Below are positions 9,503 to 62,081 of a DNA stretch of 64,000 nucleotides, in pieces (position 1 is the stretch's first letter; every line of letters starts with the position of its first letter). The translations under genes and the position numbers were made by a program. The stretch is from positions 1 to 64,000 of the forward strand of contig ONBO01000005.1 of NCBI GenBank assembly GCA_900316125.1, in the 5' to 3' direction. The notes under the pieces were generated by a model that was not told the DNA's origin, did no database searches, and worked only from the letters and a program-made list of their open reading frames with translations. Origin of the DNA: an uncultured Bacteroidales bacterium (GTDB lineage: Bacteria > Bacteroidota > Bacteroidia > Bacteroidales > Paludibacteraceae).

Positions 9503-10237
9503 TTATTTTCTCTTTTTCTGTCTCAAGGACTCTCCCTTTAATTCTATTTTCCCTGCATTATTGGCCACTAATCTGTCCATAATGGCATCGGCTATTGTTT
9601 CGTCTCCAAGGTATTCATACCATTTGCTTATCGGCAGTTGGGAGACTATGATTATAGAGCGTCTTTCATAGCGGTCTTCAAGGATTTGCAGCAGGGCGAG
9701 CCTCGTGTTGGCATCCATCTGTTTAAGCCCGAAGTCGTCCAATATCAAAAGGTCGGCAGTTTCAAGTGACTTTAGCAGCTTCAAGAAGGTGCCGTCTAAT
9801 TTGCTTAAGGCAATCTTGTCTACAAATGTGTTCATGTTAAAGTACAGTGTCTTGAAGCCTAACGTACACGCCTGCCGGCCTAACGCGCATGCCAAAAATG
9901 ACTTCCCGCATCCGCATTTGCCCTGTATCAGCAGATTCTCGTGGCGTCTTATAAACGAGCAATCGGCCAGGGCCGCCAGGTTGTCTTTTGTAAAGTTCCT
10001 TTCCTCGCTGCAGATTACGTCTTCTAGCACCGAGCTATACCTCAGGTGGCTGGTTCTTAGCAGTGACTTCATCTTGCGGTCTTTTCTGTTTAGGATCTCG
10101 GCTTCTGTCATCTGTGCCACTGCCATGTCCAGTGTCGGTCTGTTTTGCACTGACAGATTCAGCATGGCTTCGTATGCAAGAGCCATGCCGTAAAGTTTCA
10201 GCTCCTTAAGTTGGAACAGAGTCTCTTGTGTGTTCAT
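9503..10237 (-). CDS. istB: IstB, IS21 transposition helper ATPase
   Basis: 244 residues of AAA+ type. Walker A is GKCGCGKS near residue 107 and Walker B is DLLILDDFG. IstB binds ATP and DNA and assists the IstA transposase in target choice and strand joining. The start overlaps the end of istA by 32 bp, the usual translationally coupled arrangement. No damage is visible. Confidence 0.95.
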   Translation of the reverse strand: MNTQETLFQLKELKLYGMALAYEAMLNLSVQNRPTLDMAVAQMTEAEILNRKDRKMKSLLRTSHLRYSSVLEDVICSEERNFTKDNLAALADCSFIRRHENLLIQGKCGCGKSFLACALGRQACTLGFKTLYFNMNTFVDKIALSKLDGTFLKLLKSLETADLLILDDFGLKQMDANTRLALLQILEDRYERRSIIIVSQLPISKWYEYLGDETIADAIMDRLVANNAGKIELKGESLRQKKRK

Positions 10238-11813
10238 TTGTTGATAGGTTTAGGGTTATTATTTGGTTAAATGCGGCGGCGCCTCGCACCTCCGTGTTCT
10301 CTGGCGTCTTTGTCACGGCCTTTTCTTCTGATACCTGGTCCAGATTGCTCTTGAGCACGTTATGTACAATCCTGCACGACACTATTGACAGATGGGACAG
10401 CTTCTCGCATGCCTTTTCAAGTCTCTCACTGCCGTATGCCTTCTGAAGGCGTAGTATGCCTTGGCAGCCGTTATAGCTTTGCTGGACATGTTTGGTGCTG
10501 CTTAGCATCTTGCTTATTATGGTCTTGGTGTTCGGACCTATCTTTTCCGCCCGCTCTATGAAGTATGCGGCGTTGTACTCCTTGCTCCTTTGGTAAGCCT
10601 TATGGTTCTCCGGCATGTGTTCGTCAAGAGTTGTGTAGCCTATGTTGTCCGTCATTGTATGGCAGGCGATGCGGTCCAGTCCGCAGTACACCTCTACAAT
10701 CGTGCTGTCCCATACAACGTTGACCATTCTGCCCACATACTGGTATGGCACGCTGTACTTGTGTTTTGCCACCTCTATGTGGTACGTGCTTGTGACCTTG
10801 ACAGTCTTCCTGTGCCTGTAGCGGTAAGGCTGGCATGGAAGTGCGCCCAGACACATCTGCTCCTCATTCGTAAAGAGTTCAAGCCGGCTAGTCCCAGTGG
10901 AGCTGGTAGGTTTTGCGTTAAACTCATCTACAAGCTCCTGTATCCGGCTGTTTAGCTCCGCAAGAGTGTAGTGGGTCTCTTCCCTTATTACTGCATATAC
11001 GGCATTATACACTTTCCTGACGCACCCTTCTACGCACCCCTTGTCCCTGGGATGCCTGACTCGGCTTGTCTCAAGCTCCACGTCATAGTATGCGGACCAT
11101 TCAACTGCGCTTGATGAGAACGTTGGTTCGTAGCGGTCATACCTCTTCACCCACTGCTTCATGTTGTCGCTCTTTACAGTTGACGGGGTGCCGCCTATAA
11201 GTGTGAACATGTCTGACAGTGACGTGAAGAAGTTCTCCATAGAAGCCGTGAACATCGCCTTGGCAAAACAGTACCCGCTGTATGGCAGGACGCAGACCAT
11301 TACAAAAACCGCTGTCCTCGCCTGGGTTTTCTTGTCTGTGACGTACAGCTTGTCGCCTGCAAAATCCACCTGAAGCAGCTCTCCAGGCTTATATTCATTA
11401 TGGTAACTGAGGTTGTGTGCATACTGGTAGTCTCGTATTGCCTTCTTGAACTGCGTGTATCCGTATCCGTCTGGGTACTGCTGTTTGTACGTCTCGTGTA
11501 GCCGCTGGACTGTCATGTACCTGTTTCGGGACAATTGGGCTACGTATTCCGGTATTAGGCTGTCAAGCTCCTTCCTCTGAGTGGACGGCTCCTTGGGAGC
11601 CTTTGTGGTACAAATCAGGCCCTCTATGTCAGTGTCACTCAGTTTACAGACATCCTCAAAAGAGAGATTCTGGGATTGGGCGGCCTGCTCATACTTCCAC
11701 AGGGTGCCGCCTCCTATTTTTAAACGTTTGCAAATGGTGCGCCGAGGTGTGCCTGCGGCAAGCAGCTGGAACATTCTTTTCAATCTGATCATTTGTACAT
11801 TGTTTCTGGCCAT
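10206..11813 (-). CDS. istA: IstA, IS21 DDE transposase
   Basis: 535 residues. An N-terminal helix-turn-helix (about 10-50) is followed by a retroviral-type integrase core. The acidic triad can be placed at LLQVDFAGDK, TVKSDNMKQW and HPRDKGCVEGCV. A C-terminal Mu-type beta domain follows. It recognises the repeated end motifs and moves the element with IstB. The frame is intact. Confidence 0.95.
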   Translation of the reverse strand: MARNNVQMIRLKRMFQLLAAGTPRRTICKRLKIGGGTLWKYEQAAQSQNLSFEDVCKLSDTDIEGLICTTKAPKEPSTQRKELDSLIPEYVAQLSRNRYMTVQRLHETYKQQYPDGYGYTQFKKAIRDYQYAHNLSYHNEYKPGELLQVDFAGDKLYVTDKKTQARTAVFVMVCVLPYSGYCFAKAMFTASMENFFTSLSDMFTLIGGTPSTVKSDNMKQWVKRYDRYEPTFSSSAVEWSAYYDVELETSRVRHPRDKGCVEGCVRKVYNAVYAVIREETHYTLAELNSRIQELVDEFNAKPTSSTGTSRLELFTNEEQMCLGALPCQPYRYRHRKTVKVTSTYHIEVAKHKYSVPYQYVGRMVNVVWDSTIVEVYCGLDRIACHTMTDNIGYTTLDEHMPENHKAYQRSKEYNAAYFIERAEKIGPNTKTIISKMLSSTKHVQQSYNGCQGILRLQKAYGSERLEKACEKLSHLSIVSCRIVHNVLKSNLDQVSEEKAVTKTPENTEVRGAAAFNQIITLNLSTNEHTRDSVPT

Positions 11814-55677: not shown

Positions 55678-56280
55678 TTACAATATACCTGCTTCATAAA
55701 GAGTTATCACCCTCTCTATAATCCTATCCTGCTCTCTTTTTGATGTGTTGAAATCCTCTTTAAGATCAGCACCTACAATTTTTGCAAACACCTGCCACCA
55801 CCATGCCACAAAACCACCTCTAATCTCCTTTATAAGGGCATATCCCGTCTTATCCATCTCACGGTCAATAAGCTTTATCATCATTTTTCCCTGTGACAAA
55901 GTGAACTCCCTCATAGTTGGTTCGTACTTTTTAAGAAGCTGCCTTTCATACTTTTTTGTGTATTTCATGCGCTGCTTCTTATCTGTGATAGTGTCAAACT
56001 TGGCATTTATCATGGCATACTCCTTAGCCACTATCTTAACGTACGGATATACTAGCTTTACATCTCTTACTGTTTTCCAGTAGAACTTCTCCTGCTTCTT
56101 ATTTATAAGTTTTGGATAAACAGGTATTTCTCTGAGCTCCACGTAAGGTATAGTGTCACCCTTGTATACTGTCTGGTTCACCATATAGCCGCCCAGAGCC
56201 TCGCTATATGTTTGTGACACACAATAAACAGGAGTGAGTATTAGTGAAACCAAAAACGCTATGTAAAATTTTTTATTCAT
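55678..56280 (-). CDS. DUF4294 protein
   Basis: 200 residues with a signal peptide (about 1-22). The body is basic and rich in aromatic residues, with KFYWKTVRDVKLVYPYV as the conserved patch of DUF4294. A periplasmic location is expected. It is transcribed from a palindromic divergent promoter (56309-56325). The function of DUF4294 is not known. Confidence 0.85.
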   Translation of the reverse strand: MNKKFYIAFLVSLILTPVYCVSQTYSEALGGYMVNQTVYKGDTIPYVELREIPVYPKLINKKQEKFYWKTVRDVKLVYPYVKIVAKEYAMINAKFDTITDKKQRMKYTKKYERQLLKKYEPTMREFTLSQGKMMIKLIDREMDKTGYALIKEIRGGFVAWWWQVFAKIVGADLKEDFNTSKREQDRIIERVITLYEAGIL

Positions 56281-56386: not shown

Positions 56387-57196
56387 ATGAAGAGATTTTT
56401 CCTTTTGCTTATTATTATTTCATTTAATTCCGCCATAACAATGGCGCAGGATGAACTATACCCTTTCCCTTTCTCTGTACCTAATAAAAGCGGTTTTTTA
56501 CCCTCCTCTGAAGCTGTAAACTCCTTATATAAAGATTTTAACTTTACCGCATCCTACACTAATAATCTTTTTCTTTCTCAAATTGGACTTTCCAAAATTA
56601 AATTGGTTTATCCATCTGCTAAAATTAACACTTGCACCTCACTATCTTTTTATGGTTACAGTAACTTTTGGAATTTAAAATCAACCATTGGTTTTTCAAG
56701 ACATTTCAAACCCTACATATCTTTCGGTGTCACTGCTTTCTTTGTTTTCTATAGATTCTCTTTGACTGGAAAAAATCTTTTTACAGCAGGGGTTAACGCA
56801 AGCTTATGCATTTTTCCAACTAAAAAAATTTGTATAGGGGTTTCTGCTGAAAACATAAGTTTTTCCCCTCTTAAATCAGGTGACAGACTATACAGACTGC
56901 CTGTTACATTTAAAATTGGCTTCTCATTAATGATATTGAATAATTTTTCTATATCCCTTGAAGGAAGCAAGGAGTTAAAGAGCCCTTTTCTTATATGCTC
57001 TGGCATTGAATATGCTCCATTAAAACAGTTTGCCTTAAGGTTTGGGGTATCATACCAGACCAATGCCTCCATACTTGCCGGTTTTGGCCTTAGACTTAAA
57101 TCTTTTTTTATTGATTTTGACGCCTTTTACAATTTAGGAAGCGGGATAGGTTGCAGAGCCGCTATTGGATTTAGTAAGTTTTTAATCAAAAATTAA
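56387..57196 (+). CDS. outer-membrane beta-barrel-like protein
   Basis: 269 residues with a signal peptide (cleavage near TMAQ, about residue 20). Alternating strands and closing aromatic residues suggest a beta-barrel. It is clearly AT-rich. The next gene, 10 bp on in the same direction, encodes a helix-hairpin-helix fused to a barrel, so the two probably act together. No domain name is assigned. Confidence 0.7.
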   Translation: MKRFFLLLIIISFNSAITMAQDELYPFPFSVPNKSGFLPSSEAVNSLYKDFNFTASYTNNLFLSQIGLSKIKLVYPSAKINTCTSLSFYGYSNFWNLKSTIGFSRHFKPYISFGVTAFFVFYRFSLTGKNLFTAGVNASLCIFPTKKICIGVSAENISFSPLKSGDRLYRLPVTFKIGFSLMILNNFSISLEGSKELKSPFLICSGIEYAPLKQFALRFGVSYQTNASILAGFGLRLKSFFIDFDAFYNLGSGIGCRAAIGFSKFLIKN

Positions 57197-57206
57197 AAAT
57201 TAAAAA

Positions 57207-59126
57207 TTGAAAGTTGAAAATTATATATTGTTATTATTATTACTTGTTTCCTTTACAAAATTGTTTGGTAGGGAGACGGATATGGTTTTAGGGATGGAGG
57301 AACTTATATATTCTGAAATTTCTGAAGATAACATTGAACTTGCCACATCTGAAATTGAGGTTATGAATGAAACTCTTTCATTTATTGCTGAAAACCCCAT
57401 AAATATTAACACTTCCACAAGAAGCCAGCTTGAAAACCTTACCTTTCTTAAAAGTTCGCAAATAGAGAATCTTATGGAATATCTATTTGACTACGGACCC
57501 ATGGAATCTATATACGAACTAAAACTTGTTGAAGGCTTTGACGCTAACACTATTAGGGAAATTTTACCTTTTATTATAGTTGATAAAATAGCTCCTAAAC
57601 ATAAATTCTCTTTTAAAAATATATTCAAATACGGGAAATCTAATTTAACATTATATGCAGGAGGAACTTTACAGAAAAAAGATGGGTACTTAAATGGTAA
57701 ATACCTTGGAAAACCTTTTAATCTATATTTTAAGTATTACTTTAAACATAGAGATATGAGTTTTGGCTTATTAGGTTCAAAATCAGAAGGAGAGCCATTT
57801 GATTTTCACTATAATAAAGGGTTTGATTTCTACAGTGCCCATATATTTTTTTCAAATATAAATAAACACATTAAAACCATAGCTTTAGGAGACTATAAGA
57901 TGGTGTTTGGACAAGGATTGGTATTTAAATCAAATTCTAATTTTTCAAATACAAGTATAGAAAACACTATAATTTCTAATGATAATGTAAAACCTTCATA
58001 CTCTACTTCAGAAACAGGTTATTATAGAGGAGCAGCAATTCAGATAGGCGGTAAAAAAATAATGTTTTCCCTACTTTCTTCATTTACTTTTTACAATAAG
58101 AATGAAGGGTATCATAGAACAGAAAGTGACTTTGAAAAGAGGTATAAATCTCCTTCCTACATGGTTGGCGCAAATATTAGTTATAATTGGAGATACCTTA
58201 AAATTGGAATATCGGGGTATTATGATTTTTATGACAAATGCTTTAACACTGGAATTGATTATAAATTTAAAATTGGAAAGTTTATTTTTTCTGGAGAAAC
58301 TGCTTTTGATAAAAATTTCAAGTTTGCTACAATCAATTCATTTACTGTGGTTTGTAATGATTATGTATCCCTTTGTACTCTTTTTAGATACTACCCTTCC
58401 GGATATTTTACAAAGTTTGGTAATGCCTATAGTAAAAACTCACATAATGATGAAAAGGGTGTCTATATTGGTGCTTATATTGCTCCTTTTAAGAATTGGA
58501 AAATAGAGACTTACACCGATGTCTACAGAGTGAGTAATATTAACAATAGTTTGAAAAAGCCTTTTACTGGATTCAAATTTAATTTTAAAGCAATTTATAA
58601 TCCTAATGAAAATAATCTTGGATATATAAGATACAGTGTTTTGTGCAAGGAAAAAAAATCCTATATCACTTATAAACACAATATTAATATGAATTATAAA
58701 TTTTCAATTAAAGATAATTTTACCATTAACGCTACTTTATCAGGTTCTATTTACAAAGTGGATTCTCTAAATAATAGTATAAGGTCAACTTACGGATTTT
58801 TAATAAGCTCAAATGGTAATTGGAATTTTTATAAAGGAATTTTTTCCTTAACTGCAGGAGCTGCTTTTTTTGATATTCCTTTATATGATAACTCTATATA
58901 CAACTATGAACCTTCTGTGCACTTTAGATACTCATCGCCGCAATATTACGGAATAGGAGCCAGATTTTTCCTTTTATTAAAGTTTAAGCCTCTTAAAAAT
59001 ATGAATATTGACATTAAAGTAGATAATACCTATTACATAGACCGCAATGAAATAGGCAGTGGAAATGAAAAAATAAAAGGAAATAACAAGACTGTTATAA
59101 ACGGAGTATTTAGCTACAAGTTCTGA
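57207..59126 (+). CDS. ComEA-like helix-hairpin-helix protein fused to outer-membrane barrel
   Basis: 639 residues from a TTG start at 57207, which lies in a TTGAAAGTTGAAAATT repeat; the next ATG would cut off the signal peptide. Residues about 55-125 contain two helix-hairpin-helix-like copies (ENPININTSTRSQLENL and the stretch after FDYGPMESIYELKL), the DNA-binding type found in ComEA. The rest (140-639) is strand-rich and aromatic, a likely outer-membrane barrel ending in KF. dprA follows 400 bp away in reverse. Role in DNA uptake is an inference. Confidence 0.7.
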   Translation: MKVENYILLLLLLVSFTKLFGRETDMVLGMEELIYSEISEDNIELATSEIEVMNETLSFIAENPININTSTRSQLENLTFLKSSQIENLMEYLFDYGPMESIYELKLVEGFDANTIREILPFIIVDKIAPKHKFSFKNIFKYGKSNLTLYAGGTLQKKDGYLNGKYLGKPFNLYFKYYFKHRDMSFGLLGSKSEGEPFDFHYNKGFDFYSAHIFFSNINKHIKTIALGDYKMVFGQGLVFKSNSNFSNTSIENTIISNDNVKPSYSTSETGYYRGAAIQIGGKKIMFSLLSSFTFYNKNEGYHRTESDFEKRYKSPSYMVGANISYNWRYLKIGISGYYDFYDKCFNTGIDYKFKIGKFIFSGETAFDKNFKFATINSFTVVCNDYVSLCTLFRYYPSGYFTKFGNAYSKNSHNDEKGVYIGAYIAPFKNWKIETYTDVYRVSNINNSLKKPFTGFKFNFKAIYNPNENNLGYIRYSVLCKEKKSYITYKHNINMNYKFSIKDNFTINATLSGSIYKVDSLNNSIRSTYGFLISSNGNWNFYKGIFSLTAGAAFFDIPLYDNSIYNYEPSVHFRYSSPQYYGIGARFFLLLKFKPLKNMNIDIKVDNTYYIDRNEIGSGNEKIKGNNKTVINGVFSYKF

Positions 59127-59522
59127 CTATTACATTATATTTCTTTTAAATTTCTTTTTGAAAAAATTCCAATGATTATAATATTAGTGTTAATAAAGTG
59201 AATAAATAAATGAAGATTTTGTTGTGTATTAAAAACAACATGTATTTTCAATAGAAATGAACAAGTTATTAACATTCTAAATATTTATAAATGAGTATAA
59301 TAACTTCTTTATTAACACTCTTTTTTTTTAAGGTTATGTAAATAAAAATATTGTATGAAATTTAAATTTGATGTTAAAAATTAGTGTTGATTAAAAATAA
59401 AAAAATGTGACTTAAAAATTTGATAAATAAAATAAGTTGTATACCAAAACTAATTTTCAAAGTTTAAAATTTAGTTATTAAAAATTTATTATTGCTTTAT
59501 TAACATAGTTATAAACAATTCT
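59127..59522. other. AT-rich gap with DnaA-box-like nonamers
   Basis: The gap is almost all A and T. It contains four exact TTATTAACA nonamers (59196-59188 minus; 59266, 59309 and 59497 plus) and one TTATAAACA (59509). They resemble DnaA boxes (TTATNCACA) with one altered base. No coding frame is convincing. It lies between convergent genes. A replication origin or nucleoid-protein site is possible. Confidence 0.4.
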
Positions 59523-60638
59523 TCATATAAGAGAGAAGAAATTACCTGGTAGTCTTTCTACTATTCCTTTTAGCTCCATCTCTAATAAAATAGAATCTAA
59601 AATGGCTGGATTACTGAATTTTAGAATAATGGAGTCATGATGTATGGTCTTTTCTTTCTCTATAATTTCATAAATTTCCTTTTCATTACTATCCATGTTT
59701 AAATAGTCCATGGCTATATCCTTACCTTTACCATTTGCATTCCATCCCATGAAATATATGAAATCATCAGCATTTTCAATAAGTCCTGCCTTATTGTATT
59801 TTATAAAGTTATTACATCCTTCAGAAAGTCTTTCTCCTACACGTCCTGGAAAGGCGTAAACTTCACGTCCGTATGATATAGCCATTTTAGCAGTAATTAG
59901 AGAGCCGCCGCTGACAGAACTTTCAACTACAACAGTAGCGTCAGCAAGCCCGGCTATTATTCTGTTTCTATTAACAAAGGTAAAAGGAAGAGGTACAACA
60001 TCACTTACCTGTTCTGTTATAACAGAACCATTTGATGCTACCATTTTTCTTGCATAAGGTAGATGTAGGGCAGGGTAGAAGTGGTTAAAACCACCTGCCA
60101 TGACACCTATGGTTGGTAGTCCGGTTTCAAGCGCAGCTTTATGGGCTGTAATATCTATACCAAAGGCAAGTCCGCTTACAATAACAATGTTCTTATCAAA
60201 ATTAGCAAGGTCTTCTATAAACTTTGTACACAGTCTTTTTCCATGATCAGTAGCTTTTCTTGTACCTACAATAGATACTATTTTTGCACTGTTGAGATTA
60301 GTGTCGCCTTTTACGTAAATGATTTTTGGTGCATTACTGCAATAATATAGTCTTTCAGGATATTCCTTTTCTTTTATAAAAATTACTTTAATGTCTGAAT
60401 TAGTAGTGTAATAAAACTCTTTTTCAGCATTTTTAAGTGCTGATTCAAATTGAGATACCAGATAGTCTGCAGTTTCAAGTTTACACTCTAATGCTTCTGA
60501 TAATGAATAGGAATTTTGATTTAATACATTATCAGCTGTTTCAAACTTTTCAATAAGTTTAAGTGTGTTTTCTGTGTTAAGCCCTTCAATTAGGCTCAGC
60601 GCCATCTGCTTTACCGTTTTGTTTGTGTCCATAATCAT
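59523..60638 (-). CDS. dprA: DNA-processing protein DprA
   Basis: 371 residues. The Rossmann-like core contains IVSIVGTRKATDHGK, SGLAFGIDITAHKAAL and VVVESSVSGGSLITAK. The C-terminal part (about 305-371) is a winged helix. DprA loads RecA on incoming single-stranded DNA. The start is uncertain: 60638 or 60632 overlap vanZ, while 60605 is also possible. Its nearness to the HhH-barrel gene supports a DNA-uptake theme. Confidence 0.92.
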   Translation of the reverse strand: MIMDTNKTVKQMALSLIEGLNTENTLKLIEKFETADNVLNQNSYSLSEALECKLETADYLVSQFESALKNAEKEFYYTTNSDIKVIFIKEKEYPERLYYCSNAPKIIYVKGDTNLNSAKIVSIVGTRKATDHGKRLCTKFIEDLANFDKNIVIVSGLAFGIDITAHKAALETGLPTIGVMAGGFNHFYPALHLPYARKMVASNGSVITEQVSDVVPLPFTFVNRNRIIAGLADATVVVESSVSGGSLITAKMAISYGREVYAFPGRVGERLSEGCNNFIKYNKAGLIENADDFIYFMGWNANGKGKDIAMDYLNMDSNEKEIYEIIEKEKTIHHDSIILKFSNPAILDSILLEMELKGIVERLPGNFFSLI

Positions 60639-60993
60639 AAATCCGTAAAAAGGTTATGATGACAAGTGGTAAAGCGGACCCAATTGCATCAGCAATAAAA
60701 TCACCCCAAGAGGCGGTGCGGGGTGGAAAGTAATTCTGCAATATTTCCATTGCTCCTCCAAAGATAGTGGAAATAGAAAATATATAGAAATATTTAGTTA
60801 AAAATTTATCCTTGATTTTTGATTCTTTTATTATAGAGTAGGTTAGTGCTGCATACATTACAAGATGTACAAGTTTGTCAAAATTATCTATAAAAGCAAT
60901 GTTCAAATCCATTTTAGGTGTTTTGAATAGGCTTAAATAGGTTATAACTAGCGCTATTATAATTGAAAACTTATATTTTAATAATTTGCTCAC
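60586..60993 (-). CDS. VanZ-like membrane protein
   Basis: 135 residues with three or four membrane segments. The VanZ core reads NFDKLVHLVMYAAL then MEILQNYFPPRTASWGDFIADAIG. The Bacteroidota function is unknown. Its start overlaps the hemW stop by 4 bp; its end overlaps dprA. Confidence 0.82.
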   Translation of the reverse strand: MSKLLKYKFSIIIALVITYLSLFKTPKMDLNIAFIDNFDKLVHLVMYAALTYSIIKESKIKDKFLTKYFYIFSISTIFGGAMEILQNYFPPRTASWGDFIADAIGSALPLVIITFLRIYDYGHKQNGKADGAEPN

Positions 60994-62081
60994 AGTATTA
61001 TGAAATCTCTGATAATAGCATCGCTGAGAAAAATACCTTTCTCTGTAAGTGAAACTCTTCCATCATGTTTTTTTAGCAAGCCTTCTGAGATGTATTTTTC
61101 AGCAATTATGTTGAAATGGTTAGTGTATTTTAAATTTACATTACTTTCAAGCACACCCTCTTTTGTGCGTAAAGATGTAAGTATAAGCTCATTGAAAATG
61201 TCTCGTTCACTTAGAACCTCTTTTTCAGTATTCCAGTTAATGATATTGCCTGAGATAATCATCTCGTTATTCCAGTGGCGTTCTTTGGTGTTATAAGAGT
61301 GCGCACCGGCTCCAAGTCCCAGATATGGAACTCCTGTCCAGTATGAACTGTTATGCTTTGATCTGAAGCCTTTTTTTGCAAAATTTGATATCTCATAGTG
61401 TTCAAATCCTGCTTTGCTTAATTGTGAGCACAGGTGTTTGAACATATCAAGGCATGTATCATCATCAGGTGCCTTGTCAGCATATCTAAACATCGTGGTA
61501 CCCTCTTCAAATGAAAGATTATAGGCAGAAATATGCTGTACATTAAGGCTTATTGCCTGCTCAACGCTCTCTTTCCAGTTTGCCTCACTCTGGCCAGGGA
61601 TACCATATATAAGGTCAATGCTTATATTGTCATAACCGTTTTCCTGGAGTCTTTTTACTGCTTCTATAGCTGAGAGGGAGTCATGCCTCCTGTTCATAAA
61701 TTTAAGTAGAGTGTCATCAAAACTTTGCACGCCTAAACTCACTCTGTTCACAGTTGTTTTCTTCAACCCCGATATAAAAGAAAAGTCCACATCATCAGGA
61801 TTACATTCAATGGTGAACTCTCTCAATTTATCAAGATTATAGATTGAGGCCAAGGTGTCATATATTTTTTCTATATGGCTATGGTGGAGTAGTGATGGTG
61901 TTCCTCCCCCAATATAGAGAGTGTCAATATCCTTGTCAGTCAGGAAATCCTTCCTTTGAAATGCCTCATTACATATTGAATCAATGTAATGGTCTATATG
62001 GTTTAGAAGGGTAGTGGAGTAGAAGCTGCAGTATGTGCATCTCTTCTTGCAGAAGGGTATATGTACATAGATGCCGCTCAT
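60990..62081 (-). CDS. hemW: HemW radical SAM protein
   Basis: 363 residues. The radical-SAM cluster is C11-x3-C15-x2-C18 (CKKRCTYC) and the heme-related HNxxYW motif is present as KHNSSYWTG, which separates HemW from HemN. It is a heme chaperone using SAM and a 4Fe-4S cluster. It follows the coiled-coil gene by 6 bp. Confidence 0.92.
   Translation of the reverse strand: MSGIYVHIPFCKKRCTYCSFYSTTLLNHIDHYIDSICNEAFQRKDFLTDKDIDTLYIGGGTPSLLHHSHIEKIYDTLASIYNLDKLREFTIECNPDDVDFSFISGLKKTTVNRVSLGVQSFDDTLLKFMNRRHDSLSAIEAVKRLQENGYDNISIDLIYGIPGQSEANWKESVEQAISLNVQHISAYNLSFEEGTTMFRYADKAPDDDTCLDMFKHLCSQLSKAGFEHYEISNFAKKGFRSKHNSSYWTGVPYLGLGAGAHSYNTKERHWNNEMIISGNIINWNTEKEVLSERDIFNELILTSLRTKEGVLESNVNLKYTNHFNIIAEKYISEGLLKKHDGRVSLTEKGIFLSDAIIRDFIIL

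Follow-up and report, generated by a model that had tools for sequence, protein, structure and literature searches.

What is the role of an outer-membrane barrel that carries a helix-hairpin-helix (HhH) domain and is encoded directly behind a second, smaller barrel? This question is raised by a locus in the first 64,000 nucleotides of contig ONBO01000005.1 (the whole stretch analyzed, hereafter "the window"), part of a 2.07-Mb draft genome of an uncultured member of the Bacteroidales. A preliminary description had read the HhH-barrel fusion protein (the HhH-barrel), the barrel protein encoded before it (the companion), and the dprA gene after it as a possible DNA-uptake locus. Using structure prediction and gene-neighborhood comparisons across the phylum, we find that the two barrels form a conserved pair, that dprA stands outside it, and that the pair may be an outer-membrane module linked to the type IX secretion system (T9SS).

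An Ancient Two-Gene Unit

How closely are the two barrels linked, and how widely? In the window, the HhH-barrel gene begins with a TTG start codon and a signal-peptide-like N terminus, 10 nt after the stop codon of the companion. The preliminary description was right about both proteins: the fusion of an HhH domain to an outer-membrane barrel is borne out by a match to HHH_3 and by the AlphaFold model, and the second barrel protein before it by an open reading frame (56387–57196) and its own model. We searched 296 genomes of the phylum set with an alignment of the HhH-barrel, taking an E-value of 1e-20 or better as a strong match, and studied gene neighborhoods at 180 loci, namely 80 Bacteroidales named-genome contigs (of 148 found) and 100 loci of the phylum set, spread over 28 families. 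Of 41 relatives, 38 have the HhH-barrel, and at an E-value of 0.001 it was found in 239 of the 296 genomes (212 with a strong match); the family is kept across the Bacteroidota and the green sulfur bacteria. No more than 5 kb separates the companion from the HhH-barrel at 55 of the 80 Bacteroidales loci and 73 of the 100 phylum loci, in 20 of the 28 families; the gap between the two genes has a median of 6 nt (79 loci) and falls between −120 and +60 nt at 64 of those 79. Near the HhH-barrel, 28 of 31 control genes occurred at none of the 100 phylum loci and the others at no more than two. Companion and HhH-barrel are an ancient two-gene unit. Thirteen genomes in which the companion seemed absent or irregular were checked, and six have a strong one elsewhere (G103, G045, G118, G310, G219, and G346).

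Family labels are inferred, except for f34, which the FMO protein, present in 8/8 f34 genomes among 13 genomes searched, marks as green sulfur bacteria. Two large families, f21 and f22, gave no strong HhH-barrel match; they are probably Weeksellaceae and Flavobacteriaceae, the families of Riemerella and Flavobacterium, respectively.

Association with Type IX Secretion

Which system does the pair accompany? SprA is encoded in 235 of the 296 phylum genomes, that of the window included (234 scores over the cut-off). A strong companion match was found in 138 of 151 genomes with SprA and the HhH-barrel, versus 9 of 61 with the HhH-barrel and no SprA. Among named Bacteroidales, SprA is present in 26 of 27 companion-positive versus 3 of 21 companion-negative genomes, and one of these three exceptions has a strong companion elsewhere in its genome. 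The HhH-barrel itself is found in all 61 SprA-negative genomes (58 f34, two f18, and one f19).

The neighborhoods agree with this partition. The T9SS gene porD lies within 5 kb, in divergent orientation, at 56 of the 100 phylum loci (any of the 31 control genes, two at most) and in 14 of the 28 families, with 11 PorD calls in the phylum set over the NCBIfam cut-off; according to the available sections of two papers, PorD binds PorW/SprE and raises T9SS efficiency (PMC8754138, PMC10994853). In Bacteroides luti and a Bacteroidales metagenome-assembled genome (MAG; L053), the gene for PorZ (866 and 843 bits) is flanked by rdgB and nadA, and that for the companion by DUF4294 and the HhH-barrel. 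B. fragilis, where the T9SS is lost, has the same syntenic block without PorZ and the companion, and keeps the HhH-barrel. Thus, co-occurrence with SprA, the porD and PorZ neighbors, and the loss in B. fragilis show that the companion acts like a T9SS gene and that the HhH-barrel does not. Overall, the T9SS is the dominant genomic association of the pair. We rejected the HhH-barrel as a core part of the T9SS, because it is present in every SprA-negative genome and a strong match is missing from 84 of the 235 SprA-positive ones; the T9SS component lists in the available parts of PMC5053529 and PMC5445135 do not mention it.

Folds of the Two Barrels

The companion has no Pfam match over its 269 aa. 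Its AlphaFold model is a FadL-like barrel of 14 to 16 strands (mean predicted local distance difference test, or pLDDT, 84.7) with FadL and PorV (8gl6_F, TMq 0.75) among its top Foldseek matches, in keeping with a FadL-type fold. The window companion matches PorV_fam, the PorV/PorQ family, weakly (26.3 bits, cut-off 90), and 35 of 43 companions also match it.

In the large protein, HHH_3 (PF12836) covers residues 62–123 of 639 (E-value 2.3e-7, over the Pfam cut-off) and likewise matches 19 of 20 aligned relatives, in a family of about 640 to 700 aa. The AlphaFold (AF2) model has a mean pLDDT of 81.2, a fair confidence like that of the companion model, and a predicted barrel of some 24 strands, as counted from the DSSP listing. 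Chaperone-usher barrels align over the whole of it at 3.6–4.0 Å, and porins reach slightly higher Z scores over part of it. Because Foldseek TM-scores among the matches listed are at most 0.46, we found no close solved relative; among the solved structures that VIA-align lists, likewise, none is a relative specific to the large barrel, an absence that excludes nothing. Several long barrel loops are conserved as well as the strands, or better. Conservation that high is unusual for surface loops.

A Possible T9SS-Linked Outer-Membrane Module

What might the pair do? We put at roughly 45% the probability that it is a two-gene outer-membrane module, composed of an old outer-membrane channel and a T9SS-linked partner of the PorV type. 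The HhH-barrel would be an old, usher-sized channel of about 24 strands, with the HhH domain at its periplasmic mouth and a job independent of the T9SS. The companion would be a barrel of the PorV/PorQ type, bound up with the T9SS and lost along with it. It may dock beside the large barrel, for which the available sections of two papers offer precedents of a FadL-type barrel on a large one, PorV on SprA (PMC10994853) and BamG on BamA (PMC12611786). Once docked, it could couple the large barrel to a T9SS-exported surface protein; T9SS products are set at the surface by shuttle proteins, as the accessible part of PMC12618676 describes. We infer the docking, the coupling to a T9SS product or client, and the open-channel state of the barrel. 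Among specific cargoes, DNA handed to ComEC is a possible one and the leading candidate. A T9SS-linked module of this kind would bring two further proteins into the surroundings of the T9SS, a barrel of the PorV type and its large partner.

Several observations weigh against such a module. The companion occurs without SprA in nine green sulfur genomes and in MAG G367, and in three of the nine SprA-negative companion genomes, with both places listed (G102, G307, and G160), it is not adjacent to the HhH-barrel. SprA and the HhH-barrel occur without a strong companion in 13 of 151 genomes, and likewise in G344 and G350, and there are the 84 SprA-positive genomes without a strong HhH-barrel match. 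None of the companion scores listed reaches the PorV, PorQ, or PorV_fam cut-off, the best being 79.2 of 90 bits. Counts of genomes and loci are uncorrected for kinship, and a single family, f34, dominates the SprA-negative genomes (58/61). Finally, comEC, dprA, and comEA-like neighbors are left unexplained by a pure T9SS reading.

Does the HhH-Barrel Pass DNA?

These competence-gene neighbors bring up a doubtful but specific alternative, a DNA-uptake pore, which is the preliminary idea made stronger. The HhH-barrel would pass DNA to a separate ComEA-like protein and ComEC, and the companion would bring a T9SS-exported DNA receptor where a T9SS exists. At all four f19 loci, comEC (PF03772 plus DUF4131) starts −6 to +7 nt from the end of the HhH-barrel gene, and one f19 genome (G042) keeps HhH-barrel and comEC together without SprA or the companion. 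A T9SS-only reading is weakened by comEC as a neighbor; with 60 loci added, comEC is confined to this one family, at 4/4 loci. A ComEA-like gene follows the HhH-barrel after 465 nt in a single MAG of the Dysgonamonadaceae (L087), and dprA lies within 5 kb at 10 of the 80 Bacteroidales and 3 of the 100 phylum loci, in two lineages. The inward-facing strand positions of the barrel are estimated, from a rough count by alternation, to be net positive (+9.7 on average and +14 in the window), and none of the 58 sampled green sulfur genomes lacks the HhH-barrel. Chlorobaculum tepidum is naturally transformable.

Linkage to competence genes is nevertheless sparse: over the 180 loci, comEC is a neighbor at 4, dprA at 13, and a comEA-like gene at 1. 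For dprA in particular, the preliminary description had its identity (TIGR00732, 202.6 bits, over the NCBIfam cut-off) and map position correct. It lies, however, on the other strand and end-to-end with the HhH-barrel, at a distance of 396 nt, in one gene run with vanZ and hemW; companion, HhH-barrel, and dprA are therefore not one operon. We rejected dprA as a functional partner because it is convergent, belongs to a gene run of its own, and is unlinked in most relatives, an outcome that the preliminary description had itself named as refuting its reading.

Would the HhH domain bind DNA? Backbone binding of the ComEA type needs GxG hairpins and a basic surface. Hairpin 1 has the GxG motif in none of 176 barrels and hairpin 2 in 29, all from the phylum set (29/96) and none among 79 Bacteroidales. 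Mean net charge is −4.6 in the 79 Bacteroidales (−5 in the window) and −1.0, near neutral, at 96 phylum loci; an earlier, mostly Bacteroidales set of 118 barrels gave −3.6, with no GxG in hairpin 1. By comparison, in small ComEA-like proteins encoded at 27 loci of related genomes, 47 HhH domains average +1.9, and 23 of them carry GxG. ComEA is among the nearest relatives of the HhH domain in the Protein Data Bank, where EEPD1 is also matched; the window protein scores 16.5 bits against NCBIfam comE, far under the cut-off of 152. A separate ComEA-like protein of the window genome (L201) contains a GIG motif and a pair of HhH domains, and ComEC is encoded on another contig. Given its acidic charge and loss of GxG, the window HhH domain is unlikely to grip DNA in the ComEA manner, although some deep-branching HhH domains might. 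On these sequence features, the case against DNA binding is strong for the window's order and weaker for the deep lineages, because the phylum set is near neutral and retains GxG in hairpin 2 in 29 of 96 barrels.

The lack of a strong match in f21 and f22 also speaks against a DNA pore; f21 is probably the family of the competent Riemerella. According to the available sections of PMC8459023, the Riemerella screen yielded other genes: comEC, dprA, comF, recA, an HhH protein (domain at residues 236–301), and a different barrel, RA0C_RS04915. Of the 296 genomes, 137 encode DUF5689, a domain known from a Riemerella protein for transformation; matches are strongest in f21 and f22, in most of the genomes sampled there. 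DUF5689 and the HhH-barrel are not mutually exclusive, because some f20 and f23 genomes carry both.

In its widest form, the idea would make the HhH-barrel the missing outer-membrane DNA channel of the green sulfur bacteria and of the Bacteroidota, except for the Flavobacterium and Riemerella families, which would use a different barrel. It would feed ComEC directly, as the f19 operon suggests, and the companion would load a T9SS-secreted DNA receptor, such that secretion and transformation share one gate. We regard this as unlikely. A DNA channel would fill a gap in the outer-membrane passage of DNA in these bacteria, and the f19 HhH-barrel–comEC pair makes the proposal directly open to genetics. 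The DNA-uptake locus first described thus keeps some footing in the f19 comEC genes and the ComEA-like gene of L087, and loses it in the mostly unlinked dprA, the missing GxG of hairpin 1, the acidic HhH domains of the Bacteroidales, and the separate ComEA-like protein.

Other Substrates and Chance

A transporter of some other large or anionic substrate (a polysaccharide, glycolipid, or nutrient), with HhH as a protein–protein or gating domain as in GspK, also strikes us as improbable. That the HhH domain matches GspK weakly would fit it, as would the conserved charged barrel residues E196, R304, E364, R394, E416, E568, and R586 and the presence of AlgE and OprD-type porins among the top partial matches of the barrel; yet any one transport or biosynthesis gene is a recurrent neighbor of the pair in at most 4 of the 28 families, an ABC-transporter cluster in four of them coming nearest. 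That barrel, HhH-like decoration, and dprA are chance neighbors of unrelated function is very improbable: it suits dprA, a clade-specific neighbor only, but for the two barrels it is refuted by companion linkage in 20 of 28 families against controls.

Neighboring Genes

Features of the locus are collected in Table 1. Promoter-like sites scored barely above shuffled sequences, and no terminator-like site was found. At 43 of the 80 Bacteroidales loci, the DUF4294 gene is no more than 5 kb from the HhH-barrel; a text search of the literature for DUF4294 returned no paper. One SprA-negative Bacteroides MAG (G348) has two HhH-barrel copies (L084 and L089), each adjoining DUF4294. Near the pair, a cyclophilin-HEAT protein (matched by Pfam at L151 and L158) seems recurrent; a cluster that includes L270 is found in 5 of the 28 phylum families, next after porD. 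At L134, L139, and L166, a PorE/CHU_0125-like OmpA protein is encoded between the pair and dprA, together with folD; it scores below the NCBIfam cut-offs in L134 and L166. A crotonase-like gene follows comEC in L135 and L224. Elsewhere in the window (9506–11813), two adjoining open reading frames resemble an IstB/IstA (IS21-type) pair, as judged by eye from their first residues.

Table 1. Features at the two-barrel locus (window positions) and comEC in family f19 (positions within each locus)
Feature	Position	Strand	Basis
Companion, 269 aa with signal peptide, a small barrel of the outer membrane resembling FadL and PorV	56387..57196	+	Open reading frame, profile search, AlphaFold, Foldseek
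HhH-barrel fusion protein, 639 aa	57207..59126	+	Open reading frame, HHH_3 match, AlphaFold
HhH domain (HHH_3), residues 62–123, net charge −5, neither hairpin with GxG	57390..57575	+	Pfam, charge and motif count
Barrel domain of the HhH-barrel, residues 144–639	57636..59123	+	AlphaFold, structure matches, conservation
DUF4294 gene, divergent from the pair, recurrent Bacteroidales neighbor	55678..56280	-	Pfam, neighborhood counts
dprA, 371 aa, convergent neighbor outside the two-gene unit	59523..60638	-	Open reading frame, Pfam, NCBIfam
vanZ-like gene and hemW, preceding dprA on the same strand	60586..62081	-	Open reading frame, Pfam, NCBIfam
comEC directly downstream of the HhH-barrel, f19	L135 6965-9049; L141 6774-8765; L223 10998-13097; L224 10942-13026		

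Relation to Known Systems

How does the pair compare with systems already described? The literature searched yielded no description of the HhH-barrel fusion, and the Riemerella paper, in its available sections, covers a different HhH protein. The closest likeness of the companion is to PorV and PorQ of the T9SS, where PorV is a shuttle on SprA: 35 of 43 companions match that family weakly, the fold matches PorV, and both the tracking of SprA and the porD and PorZ neighbors fit. The companion differs in scoring below every curated cut-off seen, in being shorter (about 270 aa), and in having as its partner the HhH-barrel rather than SprA or PorU. In the BamG–BamA pair, a FadL-type 14-strand barrel likewise sits beside a larger functional barrel (PMC12611786, available sections), and Foldseek matches the companion to 9n2d_B and 9hiv_F; however, just 3 of 43 companions are matched by the BamG model, at a best E-value of 0.0011, and the HhH-barrel is not BamA.

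With ComEA and the Riemerella HhH protein RA0C_RS02645, which is equated with small ComEA-like proteins by architecture only, the HhH-barrel shares an HHH_3-type domain on the periplasmic side. A basic HhH domain and GIG mark the small ComEA-like proteins, whereas the HhH-barrel has its domain, acidic and degenerate, joined to a barrel, in a genome with a ComEA-like protein of its own. From the chaperone-ushers FimD and PapC, the large barrel differs in its low identity (~10%) and in that usher accessory domains were not seen, and porins score slightly higher on part of it; what it may share with them is the 24-strand scale, as counted in the AF2 model, and they align with it over the whole barrel, across 354–382 residues in the best cases.

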